24,905 bases of DNA from the IMG/VR virus record IMGVR_UViG_3300009108_000048, positions 1 to 24,905 of that record; one strand, given 5' to 3'. This DNA is from a virus. Position 1 is the first letter of the stretch, and each line of letters opens with the position of its first letter. The notes below the pieces were generated by a model, which saw nothing but the letters and a program-made list of their open reading frames with translations, was not told where the DNA came from and made no database searches. Shown here piece after piece: positions 4,033 to 24,094 of the stretch. The position numbers and the translations under genes were made by a program.

Positions 4033-4037
4033 AAAGA

Positions 4038-4047
4038 CTTATATAAT
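4038..4047 (+). promoter_or_regulatory. TATA-box promoter (cttatataat) for the tail assembly chaperone
   Basis: gacttatataa precedes the ATG at 4067, with the box centred about 25 nt upstream. The same gacttatataa occurs at 21621 before the nuclease gene. A leaderless transcript is predicted. Confidence 0.6.
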
Positions 4048-4066
4048 AATCATTTGTAGACACACC

Positions 4067-4405
4067 ATGGTACTGAAGACATTTACAATACAATTCAAAG
4101 GTACACCAGAAGAAGTACAATTCGAAGATGATATGCCATTTGGTAAATTCGAAGAAATAATTAAAAAATGTGCAAACTTCCAAGAAGGAACAAATCCTGT
4201 AACTAATGTCCAAGTTTACAGAAGGGAAGTTATGTTAAACACATTGAAGAAAGCACCATTTGAAATATCAGAAGATGGATTAGATCAACTTGGATACAAG
4301 GAGGTTACGGAGATTGCAGAAAAAATCCTAGCTGCATACCCTTTAGGGAACTACTTGAATCAGATGATGAAACCCTTCGAAGAATCGATAAAGAAGATCA
4401 GTTAG
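4067..4405 (+). CDS. Tail assembly chaperone, short form (gpG-like, 112 aa)
   Basis: The zero-frame product has strands 'KTFTIQFKGTPEEVQFEDD', then helices 'FGKFEEIIKKCANFQEG' and 'GYKEVTEIAEKILAAYPLGN'. No family motif is certain, but a small protein between the tail tube and tape measure genes is the tail assembly chaperone position of long-tailed viruses. These genes typically yield a short (G) and a long (GT) product through frameshifting. Here the zero frame stops at 4403-4405, while an uninterrupted -1 frame runs on to 4638, and an in-phase slippery heptamer lies at 4339-4345. The chaperone coats the tape measure protein during assembly and is not part of the mature virion. It is expressed from its own TATA box. 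Confidence 0.65.
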   Translation: MVLKTFTIQFKGTPEEVQFEDDMPFGKFEEIIKKCANFQEGTNPVTNVQVYRREVMLNTLKKAPFEISEDGLDQLGYKEVTEIAEKILAAYPLGNYLNQMMKPFEESIKKIS

Positions 4406-4675: not shown

Positions 4676-7600
4676 ATGGAAACACAGGGAGATTTCACTA
4701 TTAAATTTGATAAGGCAGGACTAAAGGCTATAAAAAACATAAGCACATCTGTAGGTAAATTAGAGACTAGACTTAATAAATTAAATTCAACAATAACTAA
4801 ACTAAATCAAACACAAGTTATGTATGGAAAAGCAATTCAAAACTTGTTAAAACAACAACTCAAAGTCCAACAAAAAATGGCAGGTGGTATAGGTGTGATG
4901 GCTTCCAATGCTAAATTACAGACTGGTTTAATAAAACAATTAATGGCAGCAGGTAAGAAAGGAGCAGGTGGAGCTGGAGCACAAAAACAGCAAACAAGAA
5001 TGGAAAAAATATTAGAACAACTAAGAAAATATTTAGAGCAGTTCTGGAACAAACTACCTTCACAACTACAAAGCATATTGAAAAAAATGCATAAGGGTTT
5101 AATGGATGGTTTAAAGAATGTTTGGTCTAAATTATCAAATTCACAAAAACAAGTATTACAGAGAGCAGCAGGTAAGATGGCAAGTATGGCTGTAAATACA
5201 TTAAAGGGTGCTCAGAGAATTGTAAGCAGAGGAATAAGTGTTGCTAACAAAGGGAATAAATTAGGCCAAAAAATTGGTGCTGGTATAAGTAAGATTTGGA
5301 GTAAGACTGGTGGAAAACTAGCTTCTGTTTCAGACAAAATGCCTGGTATGGCAAAAGGTTTATTGGGTGCTACTGCTCTTGCAAGTATAGGTGGACTTAT
5401 AGCAAAGGTAATTCAAGCGTCTCCTCTTTTAAAAGCCATGATGCAAATCATGAATACTGCTTTCACATTAATCTTAAGACCAATAGGTGATTTCTTTGGT
5501 GCGTTCTTTAGGCCACTATTCATTTATTTCCTTAAGGAAGTTGCTATACCATTCTTTAAAGCTGGTAAAGGCTGGATGAAAGAAGGAGAGAAATGGGGTA
5601 AGGTAGCATTAGGATTCTTCATTGATCCAGTAATGGCAATTTACAGTGGTGCAATGAAAGCAATATCACAAGGATGGGGTGCATTAAAAGGATTATTTGG
5701 GTTTGAAGCAACACCAGCATGGGTTGATCCAGCAACAGGATTAGCAGCAGCAGGAGGTCCATTGGAAGAGGTTGAGTTATTCCAGAGTGATCCAGCAGCA
5801 TGGTTAAGACAGAAACATGGAATAGAAGATAAGACAACTGGAACAGGTGGACAGCCTAAACCAGAAGAAACAATCTGGGATAAAATGTGGGGTGGAATTG
5901 GTGGTATAGGTGGTGGCTTACTTGGATTACTAGCAGGTATTTTTGGCCAGATAGATTGGGATGGAATTTGGGCCACATTAACTGGTGGGTTTGACCAGGT
6001 TTATCAAGCATTACAAAATGGATATGACTGGCTTGTAAATGGATTAGATGGAGTATCGAGAGGACTACAATTAGGTGGAGAATGGCTTTCTCGTTCATTT
6101 TCTTCAATAGCTACTGGATTATCAAGTTCATTAACTAATCTTTCTAACTGGTTATCTCGTGCAGGACTACAGTTACAACAATCAGTACTGGCATTAAGTC
6201 AAAATTTGTTGGCTGCTTTGTTAGGAGTGTTTGATGGCTTTAGAACTATAGGAGATCAATTAGGACAAGCATTAGGATCTGTAAGTGCTGGTATACAAGG
6301 AGCTGGTACAATTATTTGGGATGGGTTATCATCAGTAGGAGAAACTATTTGGAATGGTATCACAGGTTTAGGACAAACAATAACTACAGGATTAGGAGGA
6401 TTAGGAACTGAATTTAAAATAGGAGAAATTGACATAGGTGGTGCATTAGGAAATCTAGGAAAGATGTTAGAAGATGCAGGAATAAATATAATGGCAGCAG
6501 TTAATATAGCAACAGGAGGTTTATTAGGAGATCTTGATACATCGTCAAAAAGACCAACACGAACATTTTCTGGTAATGATGCAGTACAAACTGGTCCAGG
6601 AACATATACCCTAGGTGGTCAAACACACTATGGTAATGCTGCTGATCTCGCAGGCAAAACAGTTACAGTATCACAGCCTGCTACATATGATAAAGCCAAC
6701 CTAAGAACATTAGGAGATCCAACAGGTCAGAAATTCGAAGGTCCAACTGGTGCAATGATGGATATTTATAAGACTGTAGGTGGAGAGAAGGTAAAAATAG
6801 ATCCAACATCTCCTGAAGGAATTAGAATACAACAAGGATACCAAAGACAACTTGAAAACCAAGCAGCAAATGAAGCACAAACTGCTCAATTTACCAAGGT
6901 AAAGAACATGGACTCTGAACAAGCAAAGGCATATGTATTGGCTGGTGGTGGAGAAAAAGGAATAAAAGCAGCAGAGTATACAAAACAACATGGATTAAAC
7001 TTATCAACGTATGAAGGGTTGGCAGCATTAGGAGCAACAGGAGTAGATCATTCCATGATTACACAAGCAGAATCAGTAGTTGGCCAGAGAAACATGATGG
7101 CTGCTGCTTCACAAGCAATGTCAGCAAATACATCTTCAGCTGCTGGATATGGTGGAGGAAGTATTTCTGCTTCTGTAGGGCAAAGCTTAGGCCATGGTGG
7201 TTCTTGGGGAATGACTGGTGGTGGTACAACTACATCTATTGGTGGTGGCATGAACAGTGTTAGTGGTTCTAGCCCATCAGGAAATACTGGTGTTGGTGGT
7301 GGTGCTGGTGCAGCAAGAAGTAGTAGAGGTGGTTCTTCTGGTGGTGGATCTTCTAGTGGAAGTTCTTCTGGTGGAAGCTCTTCTGGTGGAAGCTCTTCTG
7401 GTGGAGGAGGTGCTGGTGGTGGATCAGGAGCTTCTGGTTCAAGAGGAAGTAGAGGTGGATCAAAGAGTGGTGCTTCAGGCAAAGGTGGATCATCAGGTGG
7501 ATCAGGCAGTAAAGGTGGTGCAGGAAGATCAAGAAGTAGTAGGGGTAAGGGTAAACAATTTGGTGGTATTATAGATGAACCAATTTTAGGTATTGGGTTA

Positions 7601-8390: not shown

Positions 8391-10529
8391 ATGGCCATAG
8401 TAAAACTGTTTGTTGAAGGTGTTGAAAAAAATCTTCATGAAGTAGAGTTAACAAAAGAGGGAGAAAGAGCTATAGATCAAATAAGCTTAAAAGTTCCTAA
8501 AGCTGTTTCTGTGTCAGTAAACCAGGAAATAAAATACTTACAAGATATGGTAGATATAACAAAATTAATAACAGTATATAATTTTCAGGGAAACGCAGAA
8601 GATGAAAGTGGATATGAACATAATGGTACGGCTTCAAATTTAACATATGGTTCTGATTCTTGGGGTGGAAAATCTGGAATATTTAACGGTACAAGCAGTA
8701 ATATAGTAGTAACACATAACTCACGGTTTGATTTTTCAAGTGACTTTTCTATATTTGTTTGGGCCAAATGGACTTCAACAACATCTGGAATGTATATCTT
8801 ATCCAAAAGAATAGAAGGTGATGTATTCCAAGACAACGTATATCAAAATAATGTTTTCTCTGCATCAACAGATGGTGGAATAGGAATACAAGCTAATGCT
8901 GCAACTGCTGGTGATGTTAGAATATCTGTTGGTGGATCTGTAATAACAAGTTCATCTGCTGGTTTTAATGATGGTGAATGGCATTTAATAAACGTATCAA
9001 GAAATAGTAGTAATTTAGTTACATTATCAATAGATGGTGTTTCAAAAGGAACAGCAACTGTAGCAACAGATATAACAACCACCACAAATCTATACATAGG
9101 AAGTGATTTCTATGGTGGTTATTTTAACGGAGAGATATCAAGGGTTAGATTATACAGTGGAAAACTTACAGCAAATCAAGAAGATACAATTTATGTAAAA
9201 AGAAATCCTAGGTCTGTTATAAAATTTGGTGGTAAAATAACAAAAATAGACTCTGAATTAACTGTAAGGAATATAATTGCACAAAGTTTTGGTAAAATAC
9301 TTGCAGAAACTGAGATAAATGGAACAGTATTTACTAACAGATCACCAGAATATATAGTTGAAAGTCTAGTAGAAGATAAAACAGATTTAACATTCAGTAC
9401 AAGTAGTGGTGTTTCTGGTATAACATTAGCTCAGTATACAGCAGATGGAAAGTTAATAGACATCATTAAAGATTTGGCAGCATTAACTAACAGAATTTTT
9501 TATACTACTGGTTCAAAACTATTAGTTTTTGATAGTATTAGTTTTAATGATCTAGATTTATTATTAGAACATGGAACAAATATAGCAGTAAAGGATGATG
9601 GTTTTGACGACACTGAAATAGTGAATGATTTAACTGTGTTAGGACAGAACTTGAGATATAACACAACACAAACATTCTCTGGAAACAACTCAAACACAGT
9701 ATTCACATTAGATAACCATCCAGTTACAGTATATGTATCTGTTGGAGGAACAGAAAAATTACCCGAAATAGATTATGAATTTGACACAATGGCCAGAACA
9801 ATAACATTTACTACAGCACCAGCAACAGCATCAAATAATATTATTGTTGAATACATATACGAAAGACCTCTGTACATAAGGGGAGTAAAAGAAACTAGTA
9901 TAACAGAATATGGAAGACATGCAAAGAAACTAACATTACCATGGATAAGCACAAGAGAAGACGGTGTTCGTTTTGTCCAATCATATCTTAACAGATATAA
10001 AGATATTAGTAGAAAGATTAAACTTACAAGTGGAAGAGTTTATAACAGCCTACAAGAAAACGATATAATTCATATAAAAAATTCTTTAAAATCAATTGAT
10101 GGTGACTTTGTGATTAAAAGTATAAAATGGAATTACCCAAAACTCACAACAGAATTAGAAGTAGGTGAATATTATTTCGATTTCTTCGAGTATGATAAGG
10201 AGATAGTGGCTAAAATTCATGACCTTGAATCTTCTATTACTAGGGTAAAGGATGTGAGGGAATATGAATCCCCAGAAGAAGCTCTAGCATTAGTAGAAAA
10301 TCTATTAATAAAAATAGAGAATTTTCAACTCTCGCAAAGTTTAAGTATGTCTGACGATACAAATATATATGACAAGCCTTATAACACCTACAGTAGTGGA
10401 AGCGTCACAACCACGTTCCAGCCTAATTTGTTTCAAACTAATGTGTTCAGAACAGCACCATTTATTAATCCACCCACATCAGCAACTTACGGATCTAGAG
10501 TGTCAGGGAGTGTGTATGTAAGTGGGTAA
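8391..10529 (+). CDS. Baseplate hub/tail tip protein with inserted LamG-like domain (712 aa)
   Basis: Residues 1-55 and about 271-630 form a gp27/gp44-type hub. It includes 'RSVIKFGGKITKIDSELT', 'IIAQSFGKILAETEI', 'TADGKLIDIIKDLAALTNRI', 'TSITEYGRHAKKLTLPWIST' and 'DGVRFVQSYLNRYKDIS', the order seen in late-control-D/hub proteins. Between residues about 61 and 270 lies a LamG/concanavalin-like domain: 'YNFQGNAEDESGYEHNGTAS', 'SSDFSIFVWAKWTS', 'GEWHLINVSRNSSNLVTLSI'-DG and a closing 'FNGEISRVRLYSGKLTANQE'. The insert falls where a hub normally has only a loop before 'fgGkI'. The C-terminus has a helical region with 'SPEEALALVENLLIKIENFQ' and an 'FQPNLFQTNVF' motif like that of the repeat fibre. 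It starts 2 nt after the previous stop and overlaps the next gene. Confidence 0.65.
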   Translation: MAIVKLFVEGVEKNLHEVELTKEGERAIDQISLKVPKAVSVSVNQEIKYLQDMVDITKLITVYNFQGNAEDESGYEHNGTASNLTYGSDSWGGKSGIFNGTSSNIVVTHNSRFDFSSDFSIFVWAKWTSTTSGMYILSKRIEGDVFQDNVYQNNVFSASTDGGIGIQANAATAGDVRISVGGSVITSSSAGFNDGEWHLINVSRNSSNLVTLSIDGVSKGTATVATDITTTTNLYIGSDFYGGYFNGEISRVRLYSGKLTANQEDTIYVKRNPRSVIKFGGKITKIDSELTVRNIIAQSFGKILAETEINGTVFTNRSPEYIVESLVEDKTDLTFSTSSGVSGITLAQYTADGKLIDIIKDLAALTNRIFYTTGSKLLVFDSISFNDLDLLLEHGTNIAVKDDGFDDTEIVNDLTVLGQNLRYNTTQTFSGNNSNTVFTLDNHPVTVYVSVGGTEKLPEIDYEFDTMARTITFTTAPATASNNIIVEYIYERPLYIRGVKETSITEYGRHAKKLTLPWISTREDGVRFVQSYLNRYKDISRKIKLTSGRVYNSLQENDIIHIKNSLKSIDGDFVIKSIKWNYPKLTTELEVGEYYFDFFEYDKEIVAKIHDLESSITRVKDVREYESPEEALALVENLLIKIENFQLSQSLSMSDDTNIYDKPYNTYSSGSVTTTFQPNLFQTNVFRTAPFINPPTSATYGSRVSGSVYVSG

Positions 10530-12510: not shown

Positions 12511-12633
12511 ATGGCTAAATGCCTATCTATGAAAGGTTTATTTAAATTATTGGAAAAGATTAATAACACCCCACAAGAGGGTTTGAATGACAAGGTAAGA
12601 ATGAGTGAAAACGTGGTGGTAAAGATTGGCTAG
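12511..12633 (+). CDS. Small hypothetical protein (40 aa)
   Basis: An ATG frame of 40 codons fills the space between two fibre genes. The product begins 'AKCLSMKGLFKLLEKINNTP' and has a probable amphipathic helix (GLFKLLEKI) and a basic C-terminus. cggag (about 12 nt upstream of the ATG) is a weak ribosome-site candidate. The stop at 12631-12633 overlaps the TTG start of the following gene, which would couple their translation. It could be a genuine micro-protein or mainly a translational leader for the TTG-started gene. No family is recognised. Confidence 0.4.
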   Translation: MAKCLSMKGLFKLLEKINNTPQEGLNDKVRMSENVVVKIG

Positions 12634-13705
12634 AAAAGCAATTTACAAACACGCAACACAAGTTAATGCTAGTAGTTATCCAGATGACGGTACAAGCCCA
12701 GTTGGAACAACAGAATGGAATGAAGATCCAGCACCACAGGGAATGTATGGTAACACACCAACAACAGCAACAATTACAATAGCAAGTGGTGTGGCCACAG
12801 TAACAGATTCAGTTACAGTGGTAACATCAGAATCAAGCACATCAGATACTTTAGATAAACTAGCAATAACAAATACAAATGAATATGATATAATTTACTT
12901 GTTTGCTAACACAGGACATACAATAACATTAACACATACTGCAAGTCCTTCAGCAGATGGTCATGTATTCACTGTAAGTGGAGCAAATGAAACATTGTCA
13001 TCAACAAAACCAACAATCCTAATGAGAAAGGGAACATATTGGTATGGATATGGTGGTGGTTCTACAACTCCAACAGATATTACAGTAGCAGATGAATCAT
13101 CAGATACAACTTGTTTTCCATTATTTGTAACAGCAGCAACAGGTGACTTAGCACCAAAATCAGGAAGTAACTTAGCATTTAACTCAAGTTCAGGCGTATT
13201 AACAGCAACAGGATTTGCAGGAGCATTGACTGGTAATGTGACAGGAAATGTAAGTGGAAGTTCAGGAAGTTGTACAGGTAATGCAGCAACAGTAACCACA
13301 AACGCAAACCTAACAGGAGATGTAACATCCAGTGGAAATGCAACTACTATTGCAAACAACGCAGTAACACTAGCAAAAATGGCTGGTGGTACAGATGGTG
13401 AATTAATCACATATGATGCAAATGGAGATCCAGCAGCAGTAGCAGTTGGATCATCAGGTCACGTACTTACAAGTAATGGAGCAGGAGCAGCACCAACTTT
13501 TCAGGCAGCAGCAGGTGGTGGTGCAACTATAGTACACGCATTTTCAAATACTACCACAACAAACTATGCTGGAACAGCTAGTTCATTCAGTACAGTTGGA
13601 TCAGGAGATAGAGATATTTACATTAAAAAGATAGATACCAACAACGAGGGTGTCTTTACTAAAATCTGGAAAAACGGTTCGGCAGTAGAAGTCCAGATAG
13701 CGTGA
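12626..13705 (+). CDS. Low-complexity tail fibre protein (359 aa), TTG start
   Basis: The opening 'ARKAIYKHATQVNASSYPDD' then 'GTSPVGTTEWNEDPAPQGMY' is a recurring phage fibre N-terminus, so the TTG at 12626 is preferred although the next Met is near residue 40. The central part has 'NTGHTITLTHTASPSADGHV', and residues of about 200-300 carry 'GNVTGNVSGSSGSCTGNAAT', 'NLTGDVTSSGNATTIANNAV' and 'VGSSGHVLTSNGAGAAPTFQ', the classical G-N-V/T repetitive shaft and tip-preceding sequence of fibres. No enzymatic motif is visible. It probably forms a trimeric fibre shaft. It starts inside the end of the 40-aa gene and is followed 8 nt later by the first jelly-roll paralogue. Confidence 0.65.
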   Translation: MARKAIYKHATQVNASSYPDDGTSPVGTTEWNEDPAPQGMYGNTPTTATITIASGVATVTDSVTVVTSESSTSDTLDKLAITNTNEYDIIYLFANTGHTITLTHTASPSADGHVFTVSGANETLSSTKPTILMRKGTYWYGYGGGSTTPTDITVADESSDTTCFPLFVTAATGDLAPKSGSNLAFNSSSGVLTATGFAGALTGNVTGNVSGSSGSCTGNAATVTTNANLTGDVTSSGNATTIANNAVTLAKMAGGTDGELITYDANGDPAAVAVGSSGHVLTSNGAGAAPTFQAAAGGGATIVHAFSNTTTTNYAGTASSFSTVGSGDRDIYIKKIDTNNEGVFTKIWKNGSAVEVQIA

Positions 13706-13713
13706 GATAACTC

Positions 13714-15147
13714 ATGGCTATAACTTACAATGCAGGAAATAGGTTAGTTTCGCCGGATTCTTCACTAGTTAATGATACAACAGGTTGGTCAGCAAGTGGA
13801 TCGTATATCACAGTTGATACCACGAACAATGAATTAGATTTTACTTATAGTGGTAGTGCAAATAATTATACAAATTTTGATCTTGGTGTAATCACTTCTG
13901 ATAATTGGGTATTAAGATTCAAATATGAAATAAAAACATATACAGGTATAGATAGTGGATATTTGCAGTGGGCGTTTGGTGTAGTATCGGCTGCAAGTAA
14001 TTCAATATCAGGAGCAGTAGATGGAATACTGCTTGTCAATACAGTTCAATCTTCACTTAATAGATATAGGCTTTATACATTGGATAACACAAAGATTTCA
14101 GGTGGAAGTCCAACGGTTGCCACATTTACTAAAACATCGGCAGTTCAAACACTTTATGTTGAGATAGAAAGAAAGGGTAGTCTAGCAAAGATTAGATTAT
14201 TTACAAATAGTGATTATTCAGGATCAGGAGAGGAAGTAACCTGTTCGTGTGTAGGAGTAGATAGTCTTAGATATATTCAGGGTGCAATATATGACGAGGG
14301 ATCGGCAATGACATACACATCATCAATATCTAATGTTCAATTTTTTGATAGTGAACCACGACTAACAGCAGATGGAACACTTGTTAATGGCACAACATAT
14401 ACAGACTCATATTCAGGTAAAGAACATATATTAAATTATGGTGCTTGGGCAGAAAAAAACCAACCGTCAAGTAACATAGGAGAACTGTTACACGATCATT
14501 CAAGTCTAGGGAAGCAACACCTTTGGTCTTTTTTTAGTGGTAGTGCTAGTGGAACAATAAATGGTGGAACAAATACTGGTATTATTGATGGTTGGTCATT
14601 AACGGATAATGCAAGTGCATCAGGAAGTCATTCTTATGGGTGTGATAATTCTATAGATGGTGGTTTTAAAATAACAACAAGTGTAAATGAAGATGATGCA
14701 ATCACTTTTTCTCCGTCAAACAATCATGCTATAGAGTGGGTTAATTATGATGGTGCTGTGTGGATTGCAGTTGCAAAACAATTTTCAACAACCAGTATTA
14801 AATCTGAATTGGGATTAAAAACTGATACAAGCACAACTACTTCTCGAAGTGTAAATATGTTCTTATGGGATACAGATGCAGGTTATTCAACCATTCGTTT
14901 TGTCTCGTCAAATTATAACCAATCTGGTGATACAACCGACACAGGTGTTTCTTTTGACACTAATTGGCACGTATTCAAGGGTGTTCAAAATGGAACAAAT
15001 TGTAAGGGAAGTATTGATGGTATATTAAGAGCAACAAACACTGGAACACAACCAGACCAAAAACAGAATTTTAACTTTATGATGAAGAATGGAACAAATA
15101 GTGCTAGAAGTATTGCTATAAGATATTGTGAGGTGTATAATACATGA
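13714..15147 (+). CDS. Double jelly-roll (LamG/concanavalin-like) adhesin, array member 1 (477 aa)
   Basis: Two strand-rich domains. Residues of about 1-215 are a distinct domain with 'LVNDTTGWSASGSYITVDTT', 'WVLRFKYEIKTY' and 'TLYVEIERKGSLAKIRLFTN', a concanavalin-like layout. From about residue 265 to the end is the array-type domain: 'LGKQHLWSFFSG', 'SIDGGFKITTSVNEDDAITF', 'GAVWIAVAKQF', 'NWHVFKGVQNGTNCKGSIDG'-ILRATNTGT and a final 'AIRYCEVYNT'. The second domain aligns by eye with the five other proteins of the array. Such lectin-like folds on tail fibres generally bind cell-surface glycans; the ligand is unknown. The gene ends in the 27-nt seam whose ATGA is the start of the next gene. 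Confidence 0.6.
   Translation: MAITYNAGNRLVSPDSSLVNDTTGWSASGSYITVDTTNNELDFTYSGSANNYTNFDLGVITSDNWVLRFKYEIKTYTGIDSGYLQWAFGVVSAASNSISGAVDGILLVNTVQSSLNRYRLYTLDNTKISGGSPTVATFTKTSAVQTLYVEIERKGSLAKIRLFTNSDYSGSGEEVTCSCVGVDSLRYIQGAIYDEGSAMTYTSSISNVQFFDSEPRLTADGTLVNGTTYTDSYSGKEHILNYGAWAEKNQPSSNIGELLHDHSSLGKQHLWSFFSGSASGTINGGTNTGIIDGWSLTDNASASGSHSYGCDNSIDGGFKITTSVNEDDAITFSPSNNHAIEWVNYDGAVWIAVAKQFSTTSIKSELGLKTDTSTTTSRSVNMFLWDTDAGYSTIRFVSSNYNQSGDTTDTGVSFDTNWHVFKGVQNGTNCKGSIDGILRATNTGTQPDQKQNFNFMMKNGTNSARSIAIRYCEVYNT
15121..15147 (+). repeat. Cassette seam 1 (27 nt)
   Basis: agatattgtgaggtgtataa + tacatga: encodes RYCEVYNT and contains the ATG of the next gene overlapping the stop. Compared with the seam at 18179 it differs at one base. 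Confidence 0.7.
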
Positions 15148-15527
15148 ATCTTCTAGTAGGATTACCAGTAGTTGCTTTGGTATTTGTAGCAGTATTATTT
15201 ATTACAGGAGCTTTTGATCCAGATCCTATAGTACCACCCATAGACATACCAACAGTACCAGATGACACACCAATAATACCCACAATACCAACAGAACCTA
15301 ACTGCATAGATAAATTATATGTCACAGTATATAGATATGATTTAAGAACAGGGGAGTATGATTGGTTAATGTATGAGGGAGAAATGAAATGCCATAACAT
15401 AGATGCATACAAAGAATCCCCTGACTTTGTAGTAGAATATGAAAATGGTTTTAGAGGATCAGAAATAAGAATACAAACAGTATTTGATGCTAACACAAAT
15501 GGTTGGCAACAGGGGTATAACGCATAA
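15144..15527 (+). CDS. Membrane-anchored small protein inserted in the fibre array (127 aa)
   Basis: Residues of about 3-23 (LLVGLPVVALVFVAVLFITG) are a strong single membrane segment or signal anchor. A Pro/Asp/Ile-rich spacer follows (PDPIVPPIDIPTVPDDTP...), then a domain of about 75 residues with 'CIDKLYVTVYRYDLRTGEYD' and 'FVVEYENGFRGSEIRIQTVF'. Two cysteines in the domain (in PNCIDK and EMKCHN) could form a disulphide outside the cell. It is unlike its neighbours, which lack membrane segments. It starts at the ATGA of seam 1 and ends with taATG into the next paralogue. Possible roles include superinfection exclusion, release, or a membrane-docked virion component; none can be chosen from sequence. 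Confidence 0.55.
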   Translation: MNLLVGLPVVALVFVAVLFITGAFDPDPIVPPIDIPTVPDDTPIIPTIPTEPNCIDKLYVTVYRYDLRTGEYDWLMYEGEMKCHNIDAYKESPDFVVEYENGFRGSEIRIQTVFDANTNGWQQGYNA

Positions 15528-16255
15528 TGGCACAGAGATCACTTTATGATTTGCTTAACGGAGAATTTGCTTCTGGTAATCCTTCTCTAGCAGAAGATGC
15601 TACAAATTCTGATGCAGTAGTAGCAAAACAAAGATTTGTCTATAATTTTGCAGGTAAAAATGACACATCAAACAACATTTGGACATTTGATAACCACTCT
15701 GGAACATCAGTAGCTATAGATAGTAATGGTATGACATTAACAACAGCGACATCAGGAACTAATGCATATTGGGCTTTTGGCTTCAATGATAAAAAAACTT
15801 TTGATTCTGAAGGCAGTGTGTGTATATGGTGTGTTAAACCACAAAATGAAATGCCTGATGAATTTGCTAATGGTTTTCAGGAATGGGGATTAGCCACCTC
15901 TATTTGGGGTTCTATAGGAAGTTATGTAGTATTAAATACAACATCAAGTGGTGGAACTCATGGTGGATATGCAACAGATAAAATTGCGTTATCAACTCAT
16001 AGTGCTGAATCTACATACACTGTGACAGATACAGGATTATCAATAGAAAAAAGATGGTATGCTTGGAAAATAGAAAACAAGTCATCAAGTTGTGAGTTAT
16101 CTGTTGATGGTCAATTAAGAGCAACAAATACAGCAACCTTGATGTCAGCAGGTGCTATACAACCATTCAGTTATGCAAATAGAGGTGGTGATGGAGATGC
16201 AGGAAGTATACCACAAAAAGCAACTGTAAATTATTGTGAGGCATACAACACATGA
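15527..16255 (+). CDS. LamG/concanavalin-like adhesin, array member 2 (242 aa)
   Basis: Paralogue of the array domain. N-terminus 'AQRSLYDLLNGEFASGNPSL', then 'VVAKQRFVYNFAGKNDTSNN', 'GSVCIWCVKPQNEM', 'RWYAWKIENKSSSCELSVDG'-QLRATNTAT, 'GAIQPFSYANRGG' and the closing 'VNYCEAYNT'. The S-(L/V/I)-Y-(E/D)-L start and the (K)Q.FV..F(S/A)G element are shared with members 3-6. Predicted all-beta and soluble. Its start overlaps the stop of the membrane-anchored gene. A role as one of several receptor-binding proteins is inferred. Confidence 0.55.
   Translation: MAQRSLYDLLNGEFASGNPSLAEDATNSDAVVAKQRFVYNFAGKNDTSNNIWTFDNHSGTSVAIDSNGMTLTTATSGTNAYWAFGFNDKKTFDSEGSVCIWCVKPQNEMPDEFANGFQEWGLATSIWGSIGSYVVLNTTSSGGTHGGYATDKIALSTHSAESTYTVTDTGLSIEKRWYAWKIENKSSSCELSVDGQLRATNTATLMSAGAIQPFSYANRGGDGDAGSIPQKATVNYCEAYNT
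16229..16255 (+). repeat. Cassette seam 2 (27 nt)
   Basis: aattattgtgaggcatacaa + cacatga; encodes NYCEAYNT plus the overlapping ATGA start of array member 3. Confidence 0.65.
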
Positions 16256-16887
16256 CCTCATTATACGAATTAACAAACAGTTGGGAAAAACCTGCAAGAA
16301 TGAGATTTGTAGATAACTTTTCAGGCGATGCATTAAACACAGATGTATGGACTTTAAATCAGATAGGTGGATCAATTTGCACAGCAACCCTTGATGATTC
16401 AGTAAACGGTGGATTAAAAATGTATGTAAATGATACAGCACCAATTTCAGCATCAGCTAGTTTAACTTTTAGTGATGTTTTACAATTCAATCCTCTTGGG
16501 AGTGTGTTTATTGGCAATATGATAAAGCCTTCATCGAACAATGATAATATTGCAATTAAATATGGTCTGGCATCTGATAGCACCGTAACACCACCCGAAT
16601 GTGCGTTAATGTGTGAGGGAAATTTGCATAGTTACAAAGGAATAGAAACAAATAACGAATCAAGAACTGATTCAAGTGTAGCAAAATCAACTGATTGGTT
16701 TGACTTCAAACTGGAATTAAATGGTTCTAGTTGTGTTGCCTCTATTAATGGAATTGTTGCTATCACAAAAACATCAAGCATACCAACAACGTCAAAATTA
16801 CAACCGTTCTTATATCTTCAAAGTAGAGGAGCTGCACAACAAGCTAGACAGTGGAACACTACTTATTGTGAGGCATATAATACATGA
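16252..16887 (+). CDS. LamG/concanavalin-like adhesin, array member 3 (211 aa)
   Basis: N-terminus 'TSLYELTNSWEKPARMRFVD'-NFSGDALNTDVWTL, then 'TLDDSVNGGLKMYVNDTAPI', 'FNPLGSVFIGNMIKP', 'DWFDFKLELNGSSCVASING' and 'TSKLQPFLYLQSRG', ending 'TTYCEAYNT'. This is a single jelly-roll domain of the array family with almost no additional sequence, so it may be the minimal cassette. All-beta, no signal peptide. Starts by ATGA overlap at seam 2 and ends in seam 3. Confidence 0.55.
   Translation: MTSLYELTNSWEKPARMRFVDNFSGDALNTDVWTLNQIGGSICTATLDDSVNGGLKMYVNDTAPISASASLTFSDVLQFNPLGSVFIGNMIKPSSNNDNIAIKYGLASDSTVTPPECALMCEGNLHSYKGIETNNESRTDSSVAKSTDWFDFKLELNGSSCVASINGIVAITKTSSIPTTSKLQPFLYLQSRGAAQQARQWNTTYCEAYNT
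16861..16887 (+). repeat. Cassette seam 3 (27 nt)
   Basis: acttattgtgaggcatataa + tacatga; encodes TYCEAYNT with the ATGA of array member 4. Confidence 0.65.
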
Positions 16888-17576
16888 CCTTAACTAAAGA
16901 TTCCATATACGAACTCATAAACGCACCAACGCAAGTTATGAAGCAGCATTTCGTAGAGTATTTTTCAGGTGATACGTTAGACACTTTCAGATGGGGTATT
17001 GTGACAGCTTCTTCGACAACATTTACAGCAACAATGGCAGATGAAATTGGTGGTGGTTTGAAAATATATTCGCCATCTTCAGGTGCTCATTCAGGTTGTA
17101 TTGCATTTAATGCTACTACTACAGGTGGAAATCAATCCCCAATGGACGTAAGACCATTTAGTCATACAGGTGCAGTTTGTATATTTGTCGCAAAATTTGA
17201 TACTTATTCAAATTATTCTAATGGCGATGGTAGTTATATTGGATTTGCACAAGATGCAAACCAAAGTGCAGGTGGTGCTAATACATTAATGGGAGGCGTA
17301 AAAGGCAACGAAACCACATTTACCATGCAAACAACCAATGCAGCAGGAAACCAAACACGACATTGGCAAACAACACCAACAGCAGATACAAATTGGCATA
17401 CATGGAGACTTGAAGCATTAGCTTCATCAGCAACAATGGGAATTGATGGTATATTACGAAGAACATCAACAGAAACACTTCCAGCAGCAAAGATGGGAAT
17501 ATGTATGAACGCTAATAGTGATAGTTCAAACAATGCAACTACTTATGTTAGATATATCGAGGCGTGGAACACATGA
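16884..17576 (+). CDS. LamG/concanavalin-like adhesin, array member 4 (230 aa)
   Basis: Begins 'TLTKDSIYELINAPTQVMKQ'-HFVEYFSGDTLDTFRWG, then 'MADEIGGGLKIYSPSSG', 'RPFSHTGAVCIFVAKFDTYS', 'ADTNWHTWRLEALASSATMG'-IDGILRRTSTET, 'KMGICMNANSDSSNNATTYV' and a diverged ending RYIEAWNT, where the otherwise conserved Cys is Ile and Tyr is Trp. It keeps every block of the family in order. Starts by ATGA at seam 3. Presumed glycan-binding fibre tip protein by fold and context. Confidence 0.55.
   Translation: MTLTKDSIYELINAPTQVMKQHFVEYFSGDTLDTFRWGIVTASSTTFTATMADEIGGGLKIYSPSSGAHSGCIAFNATTTGGNQSPMDVRPFSHTGAVCIFVAKFDTYSNYSNGDGSYIGFAQDANQSAGGANTLMGGVKGNETTFTMQTTNAAGNQTRHWQTTPTADTNWHTWRLEALASSATMGIDGILRRTSTETLPAAKMGICMNANSDSSNNATTYVRYIEAWNT
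17550..17576 (+). repeat. Cassette seam 4 (27 nt, most diverged)
   Basis: agatatatcgaggcgtggaa + cacatga; encodes RYIEAWNT with the ATGA start of member 5. It is the least conserved copy of the seam but keeps length and the overlap. Confidence 0.6.
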
Positions 17577-18205
17577 CCTACGGTTCAGTTTACGAGATTA
17601 CAAATCCATTGACAACAGTTGCAAAACAACATATGGTTGAGTGGTTTACAGGTGAAGATTTAGATTTGAAAAGATGGACATATACTGATTATCTTTCTTC
17701 AAATCATACAGGCAGTGGAATGGTTGATGAGGCAGATGGTGGATTTAAGCTAGTAGGAAATTCATCAGGTGGATCATCACAACAAACACTTATTGCATTT
17801 AACGATAAAAGACCATTTAGTAATACAGGCAGTTCAGTTATTTGGGTAGCAAAAATGGTAGCATCGGGAACAAACAAGCAAGGTGGTTGGGGTATGTGTG
17901 GAGTAATGCCCAGTTATTGGTTAGATGGATTAAAAATTAATTGTCCTACTGGAACAGGTAATTATGGATTTTATACAATGAACGCTTCTGAAGCTCAAAC
18001 AGAAATAGCTAATGTATCAGAAACAATAGCGTGGAAAACATACAAACTAGAACAGCTTAGTGCGAGTGCAAACTGTGTTATTGATGGTGTAGTAGAAGCA
18101 ACAAGAACTGCTAATATGTCAAGATATAAAATGCAACCATTCCTAGTTACAAAATATGATAATAGTGAGATTCGTGCAAGATATTGTGAGGCGTATAATA
18201 CATGA
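17573..18205 (+). CDS. LamG/concanavalin-like adhesin, array member 5 (210 aa)
   Basis: I start at the ATG of 17573 (ATGA) by analogy with members 3 and 4; an in-frame GTG at 17564 would add three residues encoded by seam sequence. Blocks: 'TYGSVYEITNPLTTVAKQHM'-VEWFTGEDLDLKRW, 'MVDEADGGFKLVGNSSGGSS', 'RPFSNTGSSVIWVAKMVASG', 'WKTYKLEQLSASANCVIDGV'-VEATRT, 'YKMQPFLVTKYDNS' and the ending 'ARYCEAYNT'. All-beta, about one jelly-roll domain. The gene after it is not a paralogue, so a foreign gene has been placed at its seam. Confidence 0.55.
   Translation: MTYGSVYEITNPLTTVAKQHMVEWFTGEDLDLKRWTYTDYLSSNHTGSGMVDEADGGFKLVGNSSGGSSQQTLIAFNDKRPFSNTGSSVIWVAKMVASGTNKQGGWGMCGVMPSYWLDGLKINCPTGTGNYGFYTMNASEAQTEIANVSETIAWKTYKLEQLSASANCVIDGVVEATRTANMSRYKMQPFLVTKYDNSEIRARYCEAYNT
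18179..18205 (+). repeat. Cassette seam 5 (27 nt)
   Basis: agatattgtgaggcgtataa + tacatga; nearly identical to seam 1 (one difference). It contains the start of the non-paralogous 144-aa gene. Confidence 0.7.
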
Positions 18206-18636
18206 ACGTAAACAAGGCAAAAAAAATACGAGTTAGGTTTCCTAACATTATATCAGGTAAAATGGTTGTGGGAGAATGCGAGAAACAGGTAATGAAATTA
18301 CCAGCTATACAGGATATTAATAATAGGATTTATTCTGAATTGTTTAGTGGTGCTTCTAATACACAAGTTGGTGCTAGATTGTTACCAAAAATTGAAGGAT
18401 TTAACTGCACATGGATTTCCGATAAATCAAATTATGGTGCGTATGTAGATGCACAATTTACATTTGCTTCAAGTGAGGAGAGAAAAGTTATGAGAATTAT
18501 AGACAGACATGGTGGTAAGATAATAGACACAAGAACAGATTTGAATCAAAACAGTTTTACAGAAACAAACCTATCAGGCAAAGAAAACGAAGTAGAACGA
18601 GTTAACGAAGTAATAGGAGGATTGAAATGGCGATAA
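18202..18636 (+). CDS. Hypothetical protein inserted in the fibre array (144 aa)
   Basis: I do not recognise this protein. It is basic and mixed alpha/beta, with 'KAKKIRVRFPNIISGKMVVG', 'LLPKIEGFNCTWISDKSNYG', 'AQFTFASSEERKVMRIIDRH' and a charged C-terminal helix (GKENEVERVNEVIGGLKW). It lacks the array signatures and the YCEAYNT ending. It begins at the ATGA of seam 5 and ends 10 nt inside the next paralogue; its tail encodes a perfect Shine-Dalgarno for that gene. The context suggests a fibre-associated or chaperone-like protein, but nothing in the sequence proves it. Confidence 0.5.
   Translation: MNVNKAKKIRVRFPNIISGKMVVGECEKQVMKLPAIQDINNRIYSELFSGASNTQVGARLLPKIEGFNCTWISDKSNYGAYVDAQFTFASSEERKVMRIIDRHGGKIIDTRTDLNQNSFTETNLSGKENEVERVNEVIGGLKWR
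18615..18620 (+). promoter_or_regulatory. Shine-Dalgarno (aggagg) for array member 6
   Basis: aggagg sits 6 nt before the ATG at 18627, within the coding end of the 144-aa gene. It fixes the start of member 6, whose ATG lies 10 nt upstream of the previous gene's end. Confidence 0.7.
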
Positions 18637-19406
18637 AATACTTAGACGGTGGAAGAATCACAGGTCTTTCGACAGACGCAAAGCCAACTAACATACCAAC
18701 TGGTTCATCATTCGTAGAAACTGACTCAGGTGCTACACTTGTTTACAATGGAACAGCGTGGATACAAGAGCAATTTGATTCAATAAATTCTGCATTTGGC
18801 AAGAGTGGTGGTGTCATACAACGTCAGCATTTCGTAGAATGGTTTTCAGGGAAAACAATAGACACAGACAGATGGACATATACACAAGTAACAGGTTCGC
18901 CAACAAGTGCTATGGCAGATTCAATAAACGGTGGTTATCAAATTACAGGAGTTGCTAACAACAACGCTGCTCAACTTACTTTTAATGGTCAAAGACAATA
19001 TACAAATTCTTCAGTATTCATAGCAGTAGCAAAGAAAGACCAATCGGCAGCAGCAATTATGGGTGGGTTGCGTAATTCTAGTGGATCTACTATAAATCCA
19101 CCGTCTGCATCTGCACAGTTTCATAATAACAGTGGTTATACAAACATAGCGATGACAACAGGAGATGCTTCTTCTGTTTCTGCTACCGAAAGTAGCACAG
19201 CACATGACCAAGCTTATCATTGTTATAAGATAGAATTAAACGCTGGTGCTTCTTCAACAATGACATTAGATGGTGTTCTTGTAATTACAAAATCTACGAA
19301 TATACCAACAGATGGTTACACATACCAACCAGCATTATGTTTCCAACAAAGAAGCACAACAAATGCCAATGGAAATTTCTTATACTGTGAGGCGTATAAT
19401 AAATGA
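18627..19406 (+). CDS. Two-domain adhesin, array member 6 (259 aa)
   Basis: Residues of about 1-50 form a small domain ('AIKYLDGGRITGLSTDAKPT', then 'FVETDSGATLVYNGTAWIQE') typical of fibre-associated attachment modules. From about residue 62 the array domain follows: 'GGVIQRQHFVEWFSGKTIDT'-DRWTYT, 'MADSINGGYQITGVANNNAA', 'SSVFIAVAKKDQ', 'AYHCYKIELNAGASSTMTLD'-GVLVITKSTN, 'YTYQPALCFQQRS' and the ending 'FLYCEAYNK'. It is a fusion relative to members 3-5. A stand-alone relative of its N-terminal domain is encoded directly downstream. The start is set by a perfect Shine-Dalgarno. Confidence 0.6.
   Translation: MAIKYLDGGRITGLSTDAKPTNIPTGSSFVETDSGATLVYNGTAWIQEQFDSINSAFGKSGGVIQRQHFVEWFSGKTIDTDRWTYTQVTGSPTSAMADSINGGYQITGVANNNAAQLTFNGQRQYTNSSVFIAVAKKDQSAAAIMGGLRNSSGSTINPPSASAQFHNNSGYTNIAMTTGDASSVSATESSTAHDQAYHCYKIELNAGASSTMTLDGVLVITKSTNIPTDGYTYQPALCFQQRSTTNANGNFLYCEAYNK
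19380..19406 (+). repeat. Cassette seam 6 (27 nt)
   Basis: ttatactgtgaggcgtataa + taaatga; encodes LYCEAYNK and carries the ATGA start of the 52-aa gene. Confidence 0.65.
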
Positions 19407-19561
19407 CCATTAAATATCTGGCAGGTAATGTAATACAAGGGGAAAGTTCCGAAAGACCTGCTAGTCCAAACTATACGAATGAAACAATCTTCACAGAAAC
19501 AGATACTCATAAATCATATATTTGGAACTCATCTACGTCAAAATGGACACAACTAACTTAA
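19403..19561 (+). CDS. Stand-alone attachment-like domain (52 aa)
   Basis: Too short for a usual ORF cut-off but well supported: it starts with the ATGA overlap at seam 6 and ends with TAA directly abutting the TTG of the next gene. 'TIKYLAGNVIQGESSERPAS', 'ETIFTETDTHKSYIWNSSTS' and KWTQL match the N-terminal domain of array member 6 (IKYL.G..I.G.s....P......F.ETD....y.WN...W.Q). It is therefore a duplicated copy of that small domain, either freed from its jelly-roll partner or waiting to be joined to one. Function as a fibre-attachment module is inferred. Confidence 0.6.
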   Translation: MTIKYLAGNVIQGESSERPASPNYTNETIFTETDTHKSYIWNSSTSKWTQLT

Positions 19562-21259
19562 TTGGCTATAGTATCTGCCGTCTTTCAGAATAACGTATTT
19601 CAAGACAACGCATTTCAGGACAACGAGTTCGGGGATTACACATTTCAAACAAACATATTCCAAGAAAATGTATTTGATAGAAACCCAAGACTAATCAAAA
19701 TATTAAATGAAACTCTATCTGTTGCAGATTCAGAACGTTCAGTGATAGGACTAATCAAACATACAAACGAAACACTACAGTCATCAGAATCCCTCCTCTC
19801 GTACAGAGATAGGTACATATTTGTCAATGAAACAGAGCAAACATCAGAGGTAGGAAGGACAGTAATAGGTCTAATCAAATTTGTCAATGAATCTGAAAGT
19901 ATATCAGAGGTAATAACTAGGCTTGGAGAACTAACTAGGTATGTAAATGAGAGTGTATCCCTGCAAGAATTTGACGGTACTGTAAGAACTATGGCCAGGA
20001 TTGTAAATGAAACTCTGCAAACATCTGAAAACATACGAAGTGTGATAGGTCTTATCAAACTAATAAATGAAACAGAACAGATGTCAGAGGTAATTAATCA
20101 GTTAAGAACTAGATTCTATATAGTTAGTGAATCTGTCAGCACATCTGAATTGATTACAAGACTTGGTGCATTAAAGCGATACATAAACGAAACAGAGCAG
20201 ACATCAGAAAGCGTATCAAGACTTGGTGGACTTCAGAGGTTTATCAATGAAACTATCCAGTCAAGTGAGGCTGTATCAAGGTTAATGAATTTGGGTAGGT
20301 TTGTGAATGAAAACGTATCTCTACAGGAGTTTGATGGAACTGTCAGATCATTGGTTAAAATGGTTGCAGAAACCCTACAAATATCTACAGCCAAAAACAA
20401 GATACTTGGATTTAATAAATATGTAAATGAAACAACACAGTTATCAGAAGTAATAAATAGATTGGGAACTATGAAGAGGATTGTTTCTGAAGTGTTGCAA
20501 TTATCAGAATCATCTGTTAAGAAACTATACCTCTTAATCCATGTTATAAACGAAACATTACAAATATCCGAATCTATTACAAGGCTTGGAGATATAAAGA
20601 GAATAATATCGGAAACACTACAAACATCTGAATCTATTTCAAATGTATTTGTATTAGTAAGAACTATAAATGAATCATTGAGTATATCAGAATCACTAAG
20701 TAAGTTAAACGTTATAATTAAATCAATAAACGAAACTCTTCAGATTTCAGAATCAATATCAAGACTAGGAACTATGTACCGTCTTGTATCTGAAAGCATA
20801 TCGTTACAAGAATTTGATGGATTAAAATCTAGAATATTAGTTAGAATTATCAACGAAATAATGCAAACCACAGAATCAACATATAGAAAGATATATCTTT
20901 TAGTCCACGTAATAAATGAATCACTTGGTATATCAGAAGCATTAAATAGATTAGGAACTATGAAGAGAATTGTGGCAGAAACATTACAAATATCAGAATC
21001 AGCTACAAGATTAGGTTCATTAAAAAGATTTGTTAATGAGGGAATAAGCACTATTGAGGGAATAATAAAACAGGTTCTTGCAGATACCACAATTCTTGTT
21101 ACAACAACATTAAAAACCACAGATAAAAGCAAGACAGCTAGGGGTGGAGATAAGAGTAATACAGCTAGGGGTGGAGATAAGAGTAAGACATCTAGGGGTG
21201 GAGATACTTCTAAGAAAGTCAAAACTTATAAGACAGACGAGACAAGTAGAGGTGATTAG
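19562..21259 (+). CDS. Repeat fibre protein: 23 x 20-residue repeats (565 aa), TTG start
   Basis: Start TTG abuts the upstream TAA. Residues 7-41 are seven tandem pentads of the form xFQxN (VFQNN, VFQDN, AFQDN, EFGDY, TFQTN, IFQEN, VFDRN). Residues 49-511 consist of 23 consecutive units, twenty of 20 residues and three of 21. Their consensus is NETLQISES, (I/V)(S/T)RLG, (T/A)(M/L)KR(Y/F/I)(V/I). Units 5, 11 and 19 are a variant with SLQEFDG, and units 14 and 20 share a (K/R)K(L/I)YLL(I/V)HVI end. Residues 512-565 are a hydrophilic tail with three DKSKTARGG-like repeats. The regular length suggests a solenoid or trimeric rod forming a long fibre or tail-tip spike. Its position after the adhesin array fits. 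No catalytic motif is seen. Confidence 0.6.
   Translation: MAIVSAVFQNNVFQDNAFQDNEFGDYTFQTNIFQENVFDRNPRLIKILNETLSVADSERSVIGLIKHTNETLQSSESLLSYRDRYIFVNETEQTSEVGRTVIGLIKFVNESESISEVITRLGELTRYVNESVSLQEFDGTVRTMARIVNETLQTSENIRSVIGLIKLINETEQMSEVINQLRTRFYIVSESVSTSELITRLGALKRYINETEQTSESVSRLGGLQRFINETIQSSEAVSRLMNLGRFVNENVSLQEFDGTVRSLVKMVAETLQISTAKNKILGFNKYVNETTQLSEVINRLGTMKRIVSEVLQLSESSVKKLYLLIHVINETLQISESITRLGDIKRIISETLQTSESISNVFVLVRTINESLSISESLSKLNVIIKSINETLQISESISRLGTMYRLVSESISLQEFDGLKSRILVRIINEIMQTTESTYRKIYLLVHVINESLGISEALNRLGTMKRIVAETLQISESATRLGSLKRFVNEGISTIEGIIKQVLADTTILVTTTLKTTDKSKTARGGDKSNTARGGDKSKTSRGGDTSKKVKTYKTDETSRGD
19580..19684 (+). repeat. Seven tandem pentapeptide (xFQxN) units in coding DNA
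   Basis: Phe recurs every fifth residue seven times with Gln after it and Asn two further on. Similar FQxN strings occur in the hub protein (VFQDNVYQNNVF near residue 145 and FQPNLFQTNVF near its C-terminus). Confidence 0.7.
19706..21094 (+). repeat. Array of 23 degenerate 60-63-bp coding repeats
   Basis: Each unit encodes 20 (three times 21) residues beginning N/S/A-E-x. Units are diverged at DNA level but keep protein length without gaps, which points to structural selection rather than recent slippage. Confidence 0.75.
21122..21202 (+). repeat. Three tandem 27-bp repeats
   Basis: Units at 21122-21148, 21149-21175 and 21176-21202 share the ends gataaragyaa and ctaggggtgga, and encode DK-S-(K/N)-T-(A/T/S)-RGG-like 9-mers. 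They are much more alike than the 20-residue repeats upstream, so they look recently expanded. Confidence 0.75.
21249..21256 (+). promoter_or_regulatory. Archaeal-type Shine-Dalgarno (gaggtgat)
   Basis: gaggtgat matches eight of nine bases of the archaeal consensus ggaggtgat and ends 4 nt before the ATG at 21261. It overlaps the last codons of the repeat fibre gene and fixes the start of the 118-aa gene. Confidence 0.75.
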
Positions 21260-21651: not shown

Positions 21652-22428
21652 ATGTTAACATTAGAAGACATAAACAACCATGTATATTTCTTGTTTAGAA
21701 AATCTCAAGCAGAGGCAATGAAAACAGAGAGATTAGGCAAGATTCATGTAAGTGATTTAATTAAACCATGTATGAGATATGTAATATATAAAAAAATATC
21801 AACCAGTTCAGGCATGAATACTGAAGAATTGAAAAGTCTTTACTTTGGTCAACTAGTACACGCACACTCACAACTAGCAGATTTAGAACACCATGAAAAA
21901 TTCTTGGGGTATGACTATGTAGAAGACAAGGTTGTAGATTTAAAGTGGGCCCAATCATTGGATGAAAATGATCCAAAACATCTAGATATAATATATGGAT
22001 CAATAGATGATCTTATTAAGATTGGTGATGATTGGATTATAGTAGATAAGAAAACTACTGGATCTATAGGATACTTCCAGAAATATAACTCAAAACCTAG
22101 TGACACACATAAGACTCAGATCAATGCATATGGAGCATTACTCAAGAAGTGTTATGGTATAGAAGCAAAGAGGGGGTGTGTTATGTATATATCAAACCAA
22201 GTAGACAAGGAAACAAGAGACAGGCCTATAGCATTATCATTTAAATTAACTGACCCAGACAAAGAATTAGAAATATTGGTAGAAAAAGCAAAGACAATAA
22301 AAGACGCTTTAATTAATAAAACATTACCTGGTAGAACAAAAAACTTCTTATGTGATGGTATGTGTCCTTTCGCAACAAAGTGTTTTGAAGATAATAGAAC
22401 GAAGTATAGTGAAATTCCAGAAGTATAG
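21652..22428 (+). CDS. Cas4/RecB-like PD-(D/E)XK nuclease with probable Fe-S cluster (258 aa)
   Basis: Motifs appear in family order: Cys40 (IKPCMRY), 'LYFGQLVHAH' with His70, 'YGSIDDLI' with Asp119, 'WIIVDKKTTG' with Asp132 and Lys134, 'KTQINAYG' with Gln156 and Tyr160 (QxxxY), and a C-terminal C-x3-C-x5-C (Cys234, Cys238, Cys244). This is the Cas4/AddB-type layout: one N-terminal Cys plus three C-terminal Cys for a 4Fe-4S cluster around a RecB nuclease core. Expected activity is metal-dependent exonuclease action on DNA ends. In a virus it may serve recombination, replication or genome maturation; no CRISPR locus or cas1 is in the window. The TATA box supports the ATG at 21652 and a leaderless mRNA. 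The following gene starts on the last base of the stop. Confidence 0.75.
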   Translation: MLTLEDINNHVYFLFRKSQAEAMKTERLGKIHVSDLIKPCMRYVIYKKISTSSGMNTEELKSLYFGQLVHAHSQLADLEHHEKFLGYDYVEDKVVDLKWAQSLDENDPKHLDIIYGSIDDLIKIGDDWIIVDKKTTGSIGYFQKYNSKPSDTHKTQINAYGALLKKCYGIEAKRGCVMYISNQVDKETRDRPIALSFKLTDPDKELEILVEKAKTIKDALINKTLPGRTKNFLCDGMCPFATKCFEDNRTKYSEIPEV

Positions 22429-23195
22429 TGAAACTATATTTTAACGCAAATAATAAGGCAACACTAGAAGCACTAGTACAATGTGGTGTTAAAAATGTCA
22501 TGCTTTCACACCGATATTCATATGCAAATATCAATAAATTTCATGATAAATTTGAATCGGTTTTTGTGGTTGCAGGAACAAAAGGAAACCCAGATAAATA
22601 CCATGACTTTTTAAAGAAGAAGAGAGAACAATATGAATACGCAACACAGTTTGACGTTTATTTTGATATGGATGCAACCCTAAAGTATTGGAAACAAGAA
22701 CAGGAAATGGGAATAGACTGGACAGTTCCAGTTTTACAGGGTAATTATGTACATCACTTAGCACAGTTAAGACCTGAGCCTAATAGTTTGGTGTGTCTTG
22801 GAGAGATAAGAGGTGTTGCAGAACTAGAAGACCAGATGAGGAAATTACCTGGCAACCTAAGATACCATGGTCTAGCCAAATCAAAGTTTATTAAGAATAG
22901 AATATTTGAGAGTGTTGATACTGCTGCATGGATATCTGTTGCATTGGCTAAGAAGAGTGAGATATGGACTGGAAGTGATTCCATGAGTATGTTCTTTGGT
23001 CAAAAGGGCAGGGGTATGGTACCAATGTTAAGACATTATTGTGAAAGATATAAGGATAATTTAGAAAAGGTGGGAATAACAACAGAGCAGATAATAAATG
23101 CAGAGTATTCTGCATTGTTAAAAGCACCTATAGCATTGATGTTCATGCCACAACTTAAAACATATGGGTTTTATGATGAGAATTTTATACAGTAA
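22428..23195 (+). CDS. DpdA/tRNA-guanine transglycosylase-like protein (255 aa), GTG start
   Basis: Starts GTG AAA CTA, with the G shared with the TAG of the nuclease gene. The protein opens 'KLYFNANNKATLEALVQCGV'-KNVMLSHRY and carries a series reminiscent of phage DpdA/TGT-like TIM barrels: 'QFDVYFDMDAT' (residues 75-83), 'WTVPVLQGNYVHHL' (98-111), 'SLVCLGEIRGVAEL' (120-133), 'LRYHGLAKSKF' (144-154) and 'IFESVDTAAWISVAL' (159-173). In DpdA the corresponding parts read vPVLQGw, vG.GS, l.HGfG.k and SaDS.aW. Such enzymes insert 7-deazaguanine bases into DNA. I cannot confirm the catalytic aspartates or zinc site by eye, so activity is uncertain. No deazaguanine biosynthesis gene is visible. It is translationally coupled to the nuclease. 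Confidence 0.5.
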   Translation: MKLYFNANNKATLEALVQCGVKNVMLSHRYSYANINKFHDKFESVFVVAGTKGNPDKYHDFLKKKREQYEYATQFDVYFDMDATLKYWKQEQEMGIDWTVPVLQGNYVHHLAQLRPEPNSLVCLGEIRGVAELEDQMRKLPGNLRYHGLAKSKFIKNRIFESVDTAAWISVALAKKSEIWTGSDSMSMFFGQKGRGMVPMLRHYCERYKDNLEKVGITTEQIINAEYSALLKAPIALMFMPQLKTYGFYDENFIQ

Positions 23196-23931: not shown

Positions 23932-24094
23932 AGAAGAAGAAAGACATTTATTAGAATACAGGGGTTATGAGAAAAGGCTAGAGGAATCTATACCTAAAGA
24001 AACAGATAAAAGAGAGAAGGATTGGTTGGAAAATAGGCTTAAATCTGTTAAAAACAGAATTCGAGATGTGAGTGCTGAAATAAAGAATGGCTAG
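23924..24094 (+). CDS. Small coiled-coil protein (56 aa)
   Basis: I choose ATG 23924, which overlaps the previous stop; the in-frame GTG at 23909 would add five residues. The product is almost entirely a highly charged helix: 'GKEEERHLLEYRGYEKRLEE' and 'KREKDWLENRLKSVKNRIRD'-VSAEIKNG, with Leu/Ile spacing compatible with a coiled-coil hairpin. No known family. Its stop overlaps the start of the large terminase by 8 nt, so it is translated immediately before it and might be an accessory of packaging. Confidence 0.5.
   Translation: MGKEEERHLLEYRGYEKRLEESIPKETDKREKDWLENRLKSVKNRIRDVSAEIKNG

Follow-up and report, generated by a model that had tools for sequence, protein, structure and literature searches.

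The window analysed here, 24,905 bases in length, is the entire virus record IMGVR_UViG_3300009108_000048, which is probably a fragment because relatives reach 56-68 kb. All of its genes are read in one direction and lead from tail genes through a variable island to a repeat protein, a nuclease and a terminase. A tail tube gene (Phage_tube_2) at 3001 is followed by the gene of a long tape-measure-like protein, and genes for baseplate-type proteins, among them a LamG-domain and an F5/8C-domain protein, lie 5' of the island. On the 3' side follow the repeat protein, a PD-(D/E)XK/Cas4-like nuclease, and the terminase at 24087. The repeat protein (19562-21259) opens with the motif F-Q-x-N-x-F-Q-x-N, which is also present within the LamG-bearing baseplate-type protein (8391-10529). 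A gene near the terminase (22428-23195) is conserved in most relatives and matched no family in a Pfam search. The island and its two boundary genes, the latter derived from gene-order comparison with relatives, contain the following features:

12626..13705, + strand: conserved gene bounding the variable island on its upstream side (g12626)
13714..15147, + strand: copy A, with anchor-like N-terminal start, extra domain (residues ~20-215) and lectin domain (residues 252-477, 14467-15144)
15144..15527, + strand: small protein of 127 aa with an N-terminal membrane segment, between A and B
15527..16255, + strand: copy B, lectin domain starting at about 15602, assigned by homology
16252..16887, + strand: copy C, near-minimal lectin cassette, assigned by homology
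16884..17576, + strand: copy D, near-minimal lectin cassette, assigned by homology
17573..18205, + strand: copy E, near-minimal lectin cassette with a structure model of pLDDT 82.9
18202..18636, + strand: conserved partner protein of 144 aa between E and F, unrelated to the lectins
18627..19406, + strand: copy F, anchor-like N-terminal module (residues 1-52) and lectin domain
19403..19561, + strand: 52-aa open reading frame, anchor-like module alone (MTIKYLAGN...FTETDTHKSYIWNSSTSKWTQLT), ATGA overlap with F
19562..21259, + strand: conserved downstream boundary gene (g19562) with FQNN-type start and repeats

Six related genes between tail genes

A sequence-only reading had described this stretch as a tandem array of six paralogous jelly-roll adhesins among tail genes. 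All six open reading frames are present, the shared sequence blocks and the terminal YCE(A/V)YN(T/K) are real, and the position after the baseplate genes and between tail genes was confirmed. Paralogy of the copies was borne out by all-against-all BLASTP (E 4e-4 to 1e-25) and by phmmer, in which every true pair among A-F scored above shuffled sequences run as controls for the query concerned. The common domain comprises about 205 residues with pairwise identities of 24-36%. The array is not contiguous, as the unrelated genes 15144 and 18202 interrupt it. Copy A is indeed the one with an extra domain, which was found again in other islands; the boundaries had to be corrected to those listed, the lectin domain being restricted to residues 252-477. 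The 52-aa open reading frame overlapping the stop of F had been missed. With paralogs side by side, conserved ends and a variable middle, the array has the organization of a multi-receptor-binding-protein cluster.

None of the shared domains scored above the cut-off in Pfam, PHROGs or NCBIfam. The Pfam models Laminin_G_3 and Laminin_G_2 did not reach it either, with a best E of 0.003 in one of 19 members; copy D of the window scored 14.1 bits against Laminin_G_2 (cut-off 22.9). With copy E as tblastn query, the best match among 50,697 phage records reached only E 0.2. The anchor-like module, which forms the N-terminus of F and by itself the product of 19403-19561, had no Pfam match; in PHROGs the copy F anchor matched a structural protein of the virion, classed under head and packaging. 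In L090 (334-1305) two halves of the anchor module are split around a glycine-rich insert.

Predicted fold of the common domain

A structure model of copy E built from 19 sequences had a mean pLDDT of 82.9 and a pTM of 0.83, compared to a pLDDT of 39 with six sequences as input. Foldseek searches with this model returned GH16 lichenases as best matches (E 6.8e-8), and superposition on a lichenase gave a Z of 21.2 and an rmsd of 2.3 across 173 residues. Most of the top structural alignments did not include residues 1-15, which belong to the conserved N-terminal segment. Independently of the model, the lectin family profile retrieved the same GH16 proteins, along with LNS domains of neurexins, at E 3e-4 to 5e-4. 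Matches in the viral structure library were Caudovirales proteins, some of them named tropism or tail. According to the model, copy E is a GH16/concanavalin A-like beta-sandwich and has the concanavalin A-like lectin/glucanase fold (GH16/LamG-type beta-sandwich); the other copies were assigned by homology to E. The jelly-roll fold proposed earlier thus holds and can be specified further.

In a sequence motif check the GH16 catalytic motif E-[ILVM]-D-x-(x)-E was absent from all 17 members. Since a GH16 fold without this motif is predicted, the domain appears to be lectin-like, and classification as a glycoside hydrolase family 16 enzyme was rejected. With the concanavalin A-like superfamily (GH16, LamG/LNS) the array family has in common the fold and the strand pair D-x-x-W-H-x-x-K...DG. 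It differs from this superfamily by the missing catalytic motif and by constituting a family of its own below the Pfam cut-off.

Arrays in related viruses

We gathered 80 terminase relatives and compared the island in those with enough flanking sequence. Gene order is kept up to g12626 and again from g19562, and the stretch between varies from virus to virus. Most relatives' islands hold other protein sets, and many of their island proteins open with the anchor-like M-x-I-x-Y-(L/H)-(A/D)-G-x-R-(I/L). A tryptophan-halogenase-type gene is situated within the variable island of L094 (9634-11181, Pfam E 1e-101) and, judged by eye, of L105 (5457-6782).

Among the first 50 records the lectin family was clearly present only in G012. 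Targeted scans added five contigs, the array contigs being found via pair alignments and linked genes (membrane protein, 18202); a scan of viral contigs with single-copy queries gave no match. Besides the window, six contigs bear arrays, in each of which two or three copies can be seen:

Window: A-(membrane protein)-B-C-D-E-18202-F
G012: lectin-(membrane protein)-lectin-lectin-18202
L120: order as in G012, three lectins, the first of them interrupted by a stop or frameshift
L111: lectin-(membrane protein)-lectin, contig cut, at least two copies
L128: three lectins, then 18202; the third with an insert of ~150 residues
L131: two lectins, then 18202, cut upstream, at least two copies
L132: two lectins, cut downstream, at least two copies

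Copy number and content differ between the relatives, in agreement with the expandable repertoire suggested before, with six copies here, three in G012, L120 and L128, and at least two in L111, L131 and L132. Fixed, unrelated single-copy genes were not what the relatives showed at this place. Several features of individual contigs may be added. The internal stop or frameshift in the first lectin of L120 (9321-10003) sits near ambiguous bases and reflects assembly error or decay. In L128 (11226-12416) the domain of ~150 residues in the third lectin is inserted behind the conserved N-end. L111 encodes two metalloprotease-looking proteins (HExxHxxGxxH; 3426-4229 and 4990-5688) close to structural genes. 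At the upstream array edge of L132, between g12626 and an anchor protein, lies an HNH endonuclease gene (8650-9258, Pfam HNH above cut-off), a possible driver of local recombination.

The 18202 protein belongs to no known family and shares 65-70% identity between the window copy and those of G012 and L120. Its gene immediately follows the lectins in each of the five contigs that show both (window, G012, L120, L128, L131) and is absent in records without lectins, except for L123, whose sequence starts inside 18202. A scan of 84,980 genomes with 18202 gave no match. Judging from position, fold and variability, this partner probably serves assembly. A protein of similar size and build to the 15144 product follows the first lectin in G012, L111 and L120; its sequence relation to the window protein is weak (16%).

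Cassette ends and translational coupling

All copies with a readable end terminate in Y-x-E-x-(Y/W)-N-(T/K/G). The end of copy A is given as an example, and the ends of B, C, D, E and F are built likewise:

15121..15147, + strand: cassette end, TAT TGT GAG GTG TAT AAT ACA TGA

This segment combines the last strand of one protein, a Shine-Dalgarno-like GAGG, and the overlapping start of the next gene. The codon of the terminal Glu is GAG in 18 out of 18 cases versus 24 out of 111 elsewhere in the lectin genes (P 8e-11, with copies that are non-independent by descent), and Ala at the cassette end is encoded by GCG in 8 out of 12 cases versus 6 out of 282 elsewhere. GAGG or GGAG is located about 8-14 bases 5' of the ATG of the next gene, which mostly overlaps the stop codon. 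GAG is fixed at the ends and GAGG or GGAG keeps this spacing to the next ATG, so this invariant codon probably acts partly as a signal for translation. In densely packed viral operons it is common for a ribosome-binding site to lie within the gene before. Similar sites are present at other overlapping genes of the window, and hence the coupling device itself is ordinary. Conservation of the coupling sequence at every cassette end is what would make the cassettes exchangeable.

Age of the array and replacement of gene middles

Duplication and recombination had been named as the diversifying force; recombination is supported, whereas recent expansion by duplication is not. Copies A-F are about as distant from one another as from copies in other viruses, and in a tree of 20 domains with mostly weak branch support the copies did not group by genome. 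Copy E, the last before 18202, shares 69% identity with the first lectin of G012. This match and the lack of grouping by genome suggest an old set with turnover. Recent tandem duplication within the virus was rejected, as copies did not group by genome in this tree of mostly weak branches.

Support for recombination comes from DNA similarity confined to the junctions and from codon comparisons. When positional counterparts were compared in five pairs, identity was 62-100% over the first 20-42 residues and 26-34% in the middles. The DNA of L128/L132, L128/L131 and L120/L111 aligns over the junctions, and similarity is lost inside the lectin genes. Neighbouring genes remain close in the compared viruses (g11955 89%, 18202 89%, membrane protein 93%). 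Selection and exchange were discriminated by codon identity at identical residues in five gene pairs, with codons treated as independent. It amounted to 96/126 (0.76) in gene starts and 504/665 (0.76) in flanking genes, compared to 113/200 (0.57) in the middles and 182/340 (0.54) in unrelated copies (Fisher, starts vs middles P 4e-4, flanks vs middles P 3e-7). The effect is weak for the second lectin of L120/L111 (0.66 vs 0.62). With codon identity near the level of unrelated copies, the middles seem to be of greater age than the sequence around them; replacement accounts for this, whereas selection acting solely on the protein sequence does not. This indicates that the middles of lectin genes have been replaced as cassettes by recombination. 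L128 and L132 also differ strongly in the tape measure, baseplate, and g12626 genes; thus, mosaicism in this pair is general and not lectin-specific.

The reported absence of reverse transcriptase and invertase was confirmed: PF00078 (controls matched), PF00239 and PF00589 were each found in 0 of 20 virus records, which may be fragments. On this basis, and with the same reservation about possible fragments, a diversity-generating retroelement and a phase-variable (invertible) tail fibre module were rejected as candidates. With no hit to a reverse transcriptase or to a recombinase of the serine or tyrosine type in the 20 records, the variation is most simply attributed to homologous recombination at the shared ends. 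One relative encodes a RadA-like recombinase.

Proposed role of the array and alternative explanations

We propose with moderate confidence that the lectins are interchangeable, non-catalytic attachment tips of GH16 fold diversified by recombination at conserved gene ends. The array products would be carbohydrate-binding-type modules forming exchangeable tips of the host-attachment apparatus. A and F would be anchored via the anchor-like module, and B-E, which are without it, probably dock by their conserved N-terminal segment onto the anchored members or one another; both roles are suggested by sequence resemblance. Homologous recombination between viruses at the conserved ends would replace the binding-domain middle or lead to gain or loss of whole cassettes. 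Since every cassette brings along, at its end, the ribosome-binding site and overlapping start codon for the gene that follows, translation would continue through an inserted or swapped cassette. Binding to a glycan, glycoprotein or other receptor, location at the tail tip, and docking are deduced from position, fold and variability. By cassette exchange the virus probably alters its attachment range. More tentatively, and with considerable doubt, we consider a recombinase-free system of self-contained gene units. The conserved start would give each unit an address specific to its position, used in docking and in recombination, and the conserved end would unite last beta-strand, ribosome-binding site and next start codon, so that tips could be shuffled, gained or lost without breaking translation or assembly.

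Selection alone could account for the pattern if the ends were constrained and the middles diverged fast by point mutation under host pressure, without exchange. The ends do carry constraints, namely the last strand and the ribosome-binding site, but this explanation predicts about equal synonymous codon identity along the gene, whereas middles resemble unrelated copies and starts resemble flanking genes. Moreover, DNA similarity stops inside the genes and resumes at the next junction, and the match of E to the first G012 copy at a different array position points to shared middles. We thus regard it as unlikely. A role of the proteins as decoration or structural components of the virion, for example on the capsid or tail tube, with a general affinity for glycans and no part in determining specificity, is quite unlikely. 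The head and packaging category of the copy F anchor match would fit such a role, but the location behind the baseplate genes, the hypervariability and several distinct paralogs per virus agree better with a role in specificity.

Alternatively, the lectins might be absent from the virion and, together with the small membrane protein, be displayed on the surface of the infected cell or set free from it, for superinfection exclusion or as decoys. In favour are the occurrence of such a membrane-segment protein behind the first lectin and ahead of the second in four of six arrays and the lack of an anchor in four window copies. We consider this role very unlikely, since the arrays of L128 and L132 are without the membrane protein and A and F share their anchor-like start with surrounding island proteins. 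Active glycan-degrading enzymes clearing the host surface would agree with GH16 glucanases as nearest folds; with E-x-D-x(1,2)-E missing in 17 out of 17 members this is hardly credible.

Comparison with known systems

The closest precedent is the tail spike cluster of the Ackermannviridae, in which one protein carries the virion anchor, the others are linked to it, and binding parts are exchanged by homologous recombination thanks to conserved 5' gene ends (PMC11414711). The array is similar in that receptor-binding-type genes lie side by side, one or some with an anchor, with conserved 5' ends permitting exchange (PMC11414711). In contrast to the up to four large tail spikes of these bacterial phages, the array comprises up to six small non-catalytic GH16-fold domains with both ends conserved. 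The spikes are joined via conserved N-terminal domains, by analogy to which docking in the array may be envisaged. In the haloarchaeal tailed viruses of the Hafunaviridae a hypervariable tail fibre adhesin region sets the host range (PMC8651126). The virus studied here, with a probably archaeal host, likewise is an archaeal-type tailed virus with a hypervariable adhesin-type locus; the Hafunaviridae locus, however, comprises a glycine-rich adhesin gene and a small gene, and no tandem concanavalin A-like paralogs were described (PMC8651126). In metaviromic islands of marine phages host-recognition genes vary among otherwise related viruses, a general population pattern without the cassette anatomy seen in the array (PMC3909814).

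The array is probably a variation on the multi-adhesin gene cluster, in a marine tailed virus probably infecting archaea. No description of this lectin family or array was found in the literature searched, chiefly outside subscription journals. To our knowledge, little is known about host recognition by viruses of planktonic archaea. The array provides a concrete, testable locus with a lectin-like family below the Pfam, PHROGs and NCBIfam cut-offs and evidence of binding-domain swaps at fixed junctions. The small two-ended cassette design would add to adhesin diversification without reverse transcriptase or invertase in tailed viruses and, if true, would link virus host range to the glycan diversity of abundant marine archaea.

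The archaeal host proposed by the sequence-only reading gained indirect support from G027 (terminase 78% identical), which encodes RadA, just above the NCBIfam model cut-off, and an MCM helicase. The host is likely archaeal and perhaps thaumarchaeal. Among named terminases, a haloarchaeal virus has the closest one (29%). A terminase scan of 84,980 genomes matched a Thaumarchaeota MAG (55%) and a Bacteroidetes MAG (66%, partial), the latter likely being a case of mis-binning.
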